From: Chthoniobacter flavus
GTDB lineage: Bacteria > Verrucomicrobiota > Verrucomicrobiia > Chthoniobacterales > Chthoniobacteraceae
DNA length: 34,927 bases
Assembly (NCBI GenBank): GCA_945860355.1
Contig: CAMARB010000019.1
Location: forward strand, 1 to 34,927
Direction: 5' to 3'
In this document: piece by piece, positions 30,130-34,927 of the stretch
Layout of the letters: each line of letters opens with the position of its first letter
How positions within the stretch are numbered: the stretch's first letter is position 1
Notes under the pieces: model-generated
The model's database searches: none
What the model saw: only the letters and a program-made list of their open reading frames with translations
What the model was told of the DNA's origin: nothing
Translations under genes and position numbers: made by a program

Positions 30130-30258
30130 GGGCCATCAGCGCGTAGCACGAAACGAGCCAGGCGCGCAAAACCAAAGGGCTCAGGCGGCGGGCGCAGGGA
30201 AACCACGGGGGGGGCCCATGCGAACCACGCACCTGCGCCCGGTGCGAAGTGGGAGAAC

Positions 30259-30610
30259 CCAGGGCTCACGCATCTAAAAAAGCGCGAGGAACCCGCCGCG
30301 GGGCTCGATCCGATGCCGGAGGCATCCCAGAAAATAGCCGACGGTTGAGCGAAGCGACACCGCCGGAAGGCCGCCCCCCGGGACGGCACCCCCGCAGGGC
30401 GTGCCAGACACCACCCGGGCAACATCTCCGCGGCCACCCCTCTGTGGGGTGGGCTGTTTTTGGGACCGGGTTCCGGTGGTGTCGCTGCGCTCCACCACCG
30501 GCCACTCGCATTGTTCCCCCAGGGAACAATGCCTCCGCTTTGCCACGCACTCTGAGAACTTGTGCGTCCCCTCCCCCCGCGAAGCTCAAGTTTAGATGCG
30601 TGAGCCCTGG
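30259..30610. repeat. 352-bp element bounded by perfect 20-bp inverted repeats and full of hairpins
   Basis: CCAGGGCTCACGCATCTAAA (30259-30278) is the exact reverse complement of 30591-30610. Just outside the left arm, and just outside the right arm in direct orientation, is GGGAGAACCC. Between them are hairpins: GATGCC-GGA-GGCATC (30312-30326), CCACCCC-TCTGT-GGGGTGG followed by GCTGTTTTT (30434-30461), and CATTGTTCCC-CCA-GGGAACAATG (30509-30531). Two related REP-like units also face each other: GGTTGAGCGAAGCGACACCG (about 30345) and, inverted, GGTGTCGCTGCGCTCCACCA (about 30477). No coding frame is convincing. It could be a non-autonomous mobile element, a REP/BIME cluster or a structured RNA. 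Confidence 0.65.
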
Positions 30611-30646
30611 GGGAGAACCCCGCCATGGGCGGCCCCCCCCGGAATT

Positions 30647-33984: not shown

Positions 33985-34280
33985 AAGGACGTGGTTTGGG
34001 AACCCGCAAGAAAGAGCAGGGGTTAGGCCCGCGAACGCGGGAGACTGGGCGGTTTCCTCCTGAAATGCCGGAGGACCGTTCCCGGCGGAACAGAGATCGG
34101 GGATGGAGCGACCGCCCCGGGGGCCCGGATTGGAGGTCCCTCTCAGGGCTCATGTTGTTTCGCGCATCCCACCCAGCGTGTTGCGCTGGGCTGGGATGGG
34201 CTGGGCCTTCGGCCCGCAAAACAGTGAGCAACGCGGGCCGCCTTGGAGCCCACGTCACCTCTGCCCCCCTTCACCGCTGC
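33985..34280. other. Intergenic spacer with hairpins, no gene seen
   Basis: No convincing coding frame. CCCAGCG-TGTTG-CGCTGGG (34172-34190) forms a perfect stem extended by ATCCCA/TGGGAT outside it, and GGGCC-TTC-GGCCC (34203-34215) follows. CCCTCTCAGGGCT at about 34138 is a variant of a palindrome that recurs at 34353 and 34396. Confidence 0.5.
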
Positions 34281-34358
34281 CCAGCCCCAACAGGGCGGAT
34301 TTAGGGGAGCCCCGGGCACCGCCCGGGGTGAACGTGTTTAAAACACGCGCAAAGCCCT
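34281..34358 (+). repeat. 78-bp REP-like repeat, copy 1
   Basis: A 78-bp unit with two perfect hairpins: CCCCGGGC-ACC-GCCCGGGG and the palindrome CGTGTTT-A-AAACACG. A near-identical unit is at 34519-34596. Here the unit continues rightward with GAAGGGGC, completing a third palindrome AGCCCTGAAGGGGC. Confidence 0.75.
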
Positions 34359-34479
34359 GAAGGGGCACGTCATCGCGTCGGCCATGGTTTGAGACGCCCT
34401 TTCAGGGCTCGACATTCGCACCGGTCGGCCGACCCCGGGCGTTGCCCGGGGCTACCCTATTTCGCCCCTGCGGGGCTCC

Positions 34480-34514
34480 CTCACCTCTCACCTCTCACCT
34501 CTCACCCCTCACCG
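34480..34514. repeat. Five tandem 7-mers CTCACCT
   Basis: CTCACCT is present three times exactly (34480-34500), then CTCACCC and CTCACCG. It is a short tandem repeat between the two 78-bp units and a likely place for slippage. Confidence 0.8.
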
Positions 34515-34518
34515 CCCC

Positions 34519-34596
34519 CCAGCCCCAACGGGGCGGATTTAGGGGAGCCCCGGGCACCGCCCGGGGTGAACGTGTTTAAAACACGAGCAAAGCCCT
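34519..34596 (+). repeat. 78-bp REP-like repeat, copy 2, abutting IS110
   Basis: The same 78-bp unit as 34281-34358 with a few substitutions and both hairpins kept. Unlike copy 1, it breaks off after AGCCCT and is followed by CATCGGGAAGTTACG, which leads within 10 bp to the stop codon of the IS110-type transposase. This suggests that the element inserted here. Confidence 0.75.
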
Positions 34597-34606
34597 CATC
34601 GGGAAG

Positions 34607-34927
34607 TTACGTCGCAAGTGCCTCATTTTGAACGCAAGTCGGATCTAGCGGGAGGAGGCGGTAGCCGAGCGTTTTGGCGTTGGCTTCCAGTCGGTGAACG
34701 CGATTTTTGCGGTTCTCCGCTTCGATCTTCGCGTAGATCGAGTCGTCGTATTCCAAGCCCTCGCGCACCAGTTTGTAGATGATCCGCAGGATCATGTGCG
34801 CCATCGCCGTCAGCGCTTTGGGCGCCCCGAGTCGGGTGCGGAGCCGGCGGTAGCGTTCGCCCAGTGCGCTGGCACTGCGATGCAGTCCGAGCGCGCTTTG
34901 TCTGAGCATTTTTGCGATGCGCGGCTT
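34607..34927 (-). mobile_element. IS110-family transposase, C-terminal part (runs off the window)
   Basis: The frame is open to the window edge, so only the last 106 or so residues are seen. They match the C-terminal (Transposase_20/IS116-IS110-IS902) end of IS110-family DEDD transposases: RYRRLRTRLGAPKALTAMAHMILRIIYKLVREGLEYDD, in the usual pattern 'FYxRLxxRxGxxKAxxAxAxKxLxxIYxxLxxGxxYxD'. A catalytic serine is expected just outside or near the edge. IS110 elements encode a bridge RNA in a non-coding end that pairs with donor and target DNA; in the IS110 group this is upstream of the transposase, beyond this window. The stop at 34607 lies 10 bp from a REP-like repeat. Confidence 0.8.

Follow-up and report, generated by a model that had tools for sequence, protein, structure and literature searches.

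A multicopy IS110-group element inserted at one point of a palindromic repeat in Chthoniobacter flavus, with a probable bridge RNA in its leader

At the end of a 34,927-nucleotide stretch of Chthoniobacter flavus DNA (the window), an insertion sequence of the IS110 group interrupts a palindromic repeat, and we put the probability at about 0.9 that a bridge RNA guides this insertion into one exact point of the repeat. The junctions are fixed, target and element overlap by 2 bp, empty sites are found in the same genome, and the leader of the element contains matches to both target and donor. By analogy with the IS621 and IS110 literature, a circular intermediate, transcription of the leader and RNA-guided catalysis would complete the process.

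Results

Junction between the repeat and a transposase gene

Repeat comparison within the window showed a direct repeat of 115 nt (34251-34365 and 34489-34603) with 87% identity between its two copies. The initial annotation had described copy 1 as running on past AGCCCT to complete a palindrome and copy 2 as ending at AGCCCT 10 bp before the stop codon of an IS110 transposase, and both descriptions were confirmed: in copy 1, AGCCCT is followed by GAAGGGGC (34353-34366), and copy 2 stops at AGCCCT (34596) and passes into CATCGGGAAG/TTA. On the minus strand, this TTA (34607-34609) ends a 106-aa frame, which is open up to the contig end and has its stop codon 10 bp from the core. The junction CT/CATCGGGAAGTTA occurred 16 times in the genome, always after GCCCT, so the meeting of repeat and transposase is not due to chance. 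The features are collected in Table 1.

Table 1. Features at the right-hand end of the window
Feature	Coordinates	Strand	Basis or remark
IS110-family element, right (transposase 3') end	34597..34927	-	runs off contig; same end elsewhere in genome
Predicted IS110-type transposase (P0001), last 106 codons and stop	34607..34927	-	open frame, homology
Core dinucleotide	34595..34596	.	CT on + strand, AG in transposase orientation
Interrupted repeat copy 2, left half (outer hairpin, spacer, AAGCC)	34489..34594	+	direct repeat
Uninterrupted composite palindromic repeat	34251..34480	.	inverted repeats I1, I2, I22
Outer hairpins of the uninterrupted composite repeat	34286-34329 and 34432-34475
Inner palindromes of the uninterrupted composite repeat, spacer between	34353-34366 and 34396-34409
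Empty target site AGCCCTGAAGGGGC	34353..34366	+	27 uninterrupted sites in genome
Second, inverted empty target site AGCCCTGAAAGGGC	34396..34409	-	inverted repeats and genome pattern count
Acido-Lenti-1 motif (RF01687), outer hairpin of repeat	34433..34477	+	41.1 bits, gathering score 37

The predicted protein P0001 (106 aa) was 44% identical to G018, which has PF01548 and PF02371 in its reading frames; with plasmid proteins under the annotation 'IS110 family transposase' the identity reached 44%. Homologues of P0001 at 29-44% identity carry PF01548 and/or PF02371. Judged by this homology, P0001 is probably the C-terminal piece of an IS110-type transposase. P0001 alone gave no Pfam match, the fragment being too short, or too near the end of the protein, to reach a score, and a PF01548 search of its own assembly found no match, the transposase N-terminus and catalytic residues not being seen there. 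No intact full-length copy was found in the same genome (PF01548 search), in genome contigs (protein search), in viral contigs (protein search with one spurious match, and pattern search) or in genomes of the order and phylum (leader-DNA search), the last of which returned a single relic, G016.

Sister copies share both junctions

The genome is a draft assembly (276 contigs, 86.5% complete), and the right end of the element closes contigs C19 (the window), C255, C94, C61 and C271 and opens C46, as is expected if the reads are shorter than a multicopy element and the assembly breaks there. The genome holds at least six right ends of the window type, each preceded by GCCCT, and all 16 right junctions read GCCCT/CATCGGG. 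The window copy is read on one side only, its own left end lying outside the assembly; the left end was therefore read off fragments and deletion derivatives of other copies and then searched in the genome. Apparently intact left ends close or open C230, C222, C213, C92 and C46, and GAA(G/A)GGG was found beyond the core in all five, so that the GAAGGGG-like sequence foreseen past the other end of the element is present on sister copies. Ten of the 13 distinct left junctions read AG/CGGAGCTC into the element and GAA(G/A)GGG into the flank (window orientation); the remaining three belong to defective copies, with GTAGGGG, GGAGGGG and GAATCGG (core TT). Among the derivatives, those on C30, C78 and C233 have GAAGGGG or GAAAGGG beyond the left end, and the left end on C233 runs on into the C134 derivative (113-bp overlap).

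Both junctions lie on one contig in four short defective derivatives, whose flanks, once rejoined, follow the pattern (A/G)AGCC-CT-GNAGGGG: AAGCC-CT-GAAGGGGC (C30), GAGCC-CT-GAAGGGGC (C78), GAGCC-CT-GTAGGGG (C56) and GAGCC-CT-GGAGGGG (C134:782-949). The overlap of target and element is therefore exactly two bases, CT/AG, and comparison of the 16 right and 13 left junctions with the 27 empty sites gave the same 2-bp overlap.

The flanks of other copies had been proposed as a check on the repeat as target. The six apparently intact right ends were all found in hairpin repeats (a variant repeat on C271); the relics C56, C134:782-949, C11 and C84 lie outside the hairpin repeat, yet still after GCCCT. 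The repeat half might also be a passenger within a composite unit that travels or is duplicated together with the element, and a hairpin of the same kind does stand about 40 bp outside the junction at most right ends. We consider this extremely unlikely, in view of the uninterrupted repeat copies, one of them next door, of an element that is nearly identical between copies while its flanks diverge, and of the copies on C56, C11, C84 and C134 in unrelated sequence with only GCCCT in common; the rejoined empty sites contradict it as well. The repeat is accordingly treated below as the interrupted target.

The derivatives C56:1908-2076 and C134:782-949 are about 168 bp long and have both ends of the element, without transposase and without guides; both adjoin the same sequence (ATCTGCGGTTGATCTATC), and they are possibly copies mobilised in trans. 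On C80 (15881-16201), a right-end relic lies within a 217-bp tandem duplication. Several derivatives also contain, nested in them (C134, C11) or in parts (C30, C78), an element of about 350 bp that is present in the window at 30258-30611, has perfect terminal inverted repeats of 21 bp (CCCAGGGCTCACGCATCTAAA), occurs in some 15-20 long copies in the genome and includes a REP-like unit of the form GTAGCCGG...CCGG; it resembles a MITE.

The target is the inner palindrome of an Acido-Lenti-1 repeat

The uninterrupted site AGCCCTGAANGGGC occurred 27 times in the genome and its reversed-pattern control not once. Of these empty sites, 25 lie near a CCCCGGGC-type hairpin, mostly about 40 bp away and all within 90 bp. 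The full composite unit, some 190 bp in length, consists of a hairpin, about 22 nt, palindrome 1, about 29 nt, the inverted palindrome 2, about 22 nt and the inverted hairpin. The CCCCGGGC-type outer hairpin of the window matches the Acido-Lenti-1 RNA motif (Rfam RF01687; PMC2864571) above the gathering score. The Acido-Lenti-1 hairpins here and in sister genera often form inverted pairs about 140-180 bp apart (with different inner palindromes in sister genera), in the manner of an intergenic BIME-type DNA repeat, which suggests that Acido-Lenti-1 is an intergenic DNA repeat and not a single RNA gene. The motif is multicopy in this order (window 34433-34477; loci L069-L071 and L074). At 34480-34513 the hairpin repeat of the window is adjoined by 7-bp tandem repeats (TCACCTC), and about 30 more TCACCTC-like runs occur elsewhere in the genome, many adjoining the same hairpin repeat.

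The repeat had been called REP-like. This holds for its form, that of paired intergenic hairpins. A REP made by a RAYT would be a palindrome with a GTAG-type tag and linked to a RAYT gene; no copies of the target repeat were found beside the four Y1-transposase loci examined, and the GTAG-bearing REP-like unit of this genome is another repeat. Fragments of the GTAGCCGG...CCGG unit surround a Y1 (RAYT-type) transposase gene (C47:16879-17211) at C47:16672-18263, likely a RAYT/REP system distinct from the repeat that the IS110 element targets.

The leader contains an ordered set of guides

In the IS110 group, tnp is preceded by a long leader and the right end is short (PMC11208160, PMC11187229). 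The same layout was found here, without long terminal inverted repeats, with 10 bp from stop codon to core and a leader that the C134 derivative keeps through to the probable start codon, an ATG (ATGAAAACCAAAAAACCAGAGTGGGCG, MKTKKPEWAGVK). This leader is non-coding and about 262 nt long, positions 146-262 being read from this one defective copy. On the transposase strand, CCTTCAG (136-142) equals the left target plus core (LTG), GAGCC (154-158) is complementary to the right target GGCTC (RTG), CGATGAG (204-210) equals the left donor plus core (LDG), and CTCCG (232-236) is complementary to the right donor CGGAG (RDG). The guides, of 7, 5, 7 and 5 nt, thus stand in the order LTG-RTG-LDG-RDG, and the score of the set was reached by none of 5000 dinucleotide shuffles and none of 5000 shuffled target sets. 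A target loop matching the repeat around AGCCCT had been predicted, and CCTTCAG and GAGCC fit the repeat in this way; the donor guides match too. The left target guide CCTTCAG is also present in the leader of intact copies, and the G016 relic of another genus (CAMCYN010000213.1), inserted at GCCCCTTCAG, has the same target loop with CTTTCAG for CCTTCAG, plus GAGCC. On inspection of the sequence, a CCCGT pentamer precedes each of the left guides, which two similar loops would lead one to expect. The folding energy of the leader was no better than that of shuffles (z = -0.55). An 8-bp inverted match near the ends, GGGAAGTT/AACTTCCC, was rejected as a subterminal inverted repeat, being asymmetric, with distances to the cores of about 5 and 37 bp.

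The insertion point in the short palindrome AGCCCTGAAGGGGC beside other hairpins would also suit a transposase that recognises the folded hairpin as a DNA structure, with no RNA guide steering insertion. Such recognition is improbable given that the leader holds all four guides in the expected order, and that the sites on C56 and C134:782-949 deviate from the palindrome with most guide matches kept.

The left guides include the core AG, and the right guides show UG and GG where CU is expected; both right guides mispair, so the core does not take part in all four guide pairings as it does in IS621. On the strand opposite to the transposase the core reads CT, as in IS621, and one could imagine an arrangement, IS1111-like or inverted, in which that strand encodes the guide RNA. 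The same guide scan found no ordered guide set in the leader on the opposite strand, AG closes the left guides on the transposase strand, and ISPpu9 likewise generates an AG repeat, the first bases of its 5' end coming right after AG (PMC8450116), all of which makes the inverted arrangement very improbable. We therefore keep to a bridge RNA on the transposase strand and a core AG.

Discussion

Proposed mechanism and significance

In the mechanism that we propose, a DEDD/serine transposase would insert the circular form of this multicopy element at one point of the palindrome, with recombination at the 2-bp core AG of the target 5'-GCCCCTTC-AG-GGCTC (transposase orientation) in a repeat spread genome-wide. 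A bridge RNA encoded by the leader that precedes the transposase would select the target: the target loop of this RNA (CCUUCAG ... GAGCC) is predicted to pair with both sides of the palindrome, and its donor loop (CGAUGAG ... CUCCG) with the joined circle ends (CGATG-AG-CGGAG).

This would extend REP-targeting, bridge-RNA-guided IS110 transposition to Verrucomicrobiota with a readable set of guides, target and donor, and offer an AG-core example for asking how IS110 recombinases encode the choice of core. The analysis also shows that Acido-Lenti-1, a repeat filed in Rfam as an RNA, belongs to a paired intergenic repeat into which the element inserts. Two points are less expected: that the target repeat is Acido-Lenti-1, and that the core is AG with right guides that do not pair with it. 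A wider reading, which we offer tentatively and think rather doubtful, is that of an AG-core IS110 lineage in which the right guides skip the core, the inner palindrome of the Acido-Lenti-1 repeat serves as a safe intergenic target, and derivatives without transposase, even those of about 170 bp without guides, are mobilised in trans. If true, Acido-Lenti-1 would stand for a DNA repeat, mobile or REP-like, and not for an RNA gene.

Comparison with known systems

IS621 of Escherichia coli, of the IS110 group (PMC11208160, PMC11208158), shares with the present element the leader upstream of the transposase, the LTG-RTG-LDG-RDG order with similar spacing, the 2-bp core and a palindromic repeat as target. 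The two differ in the core, AG here and CT in IS621 (with T almost invariant in IS621 orthologues), in the start of the guides, at about 136 nt here and about 50 nt in IS621 (guides at 50, 77, 123 and 157; PMC11208158), and in the right guides, here unpaired with the core. ISPa11 and ISPpu10, members of IS110/IS1111, also insert site-specifically in REP-type repeats (PMC1525189, PMC11187229), but ISPa11 is of the IS1111 type, in which the guide RNA follows the transposase, and the targets are different.

ISPpu9, of the IS110/IS492 family in Pseudomonas putida KT2440 (PMC8450116), is likewise multicopy, takes a fixed position within REP sequences, carries AG at each end and also occurs at non-REP sites as short copies that keep the ends but lack the transposase. 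By description, our element is set apart from it by another repeat sequence and phylum and by short copies that are deletion derivatives, and an ssr9-like module as in ISPpu9 was not seen in it. The AG core and the short copies therefore have a precedent in ISPpu9, and IS621 and ISPa11 target REP sequences too; the element is on these grounds convincingly a new example of the known REP-targeting, bridge-RNA-guided IS110 mechanism and not a new mechanism.
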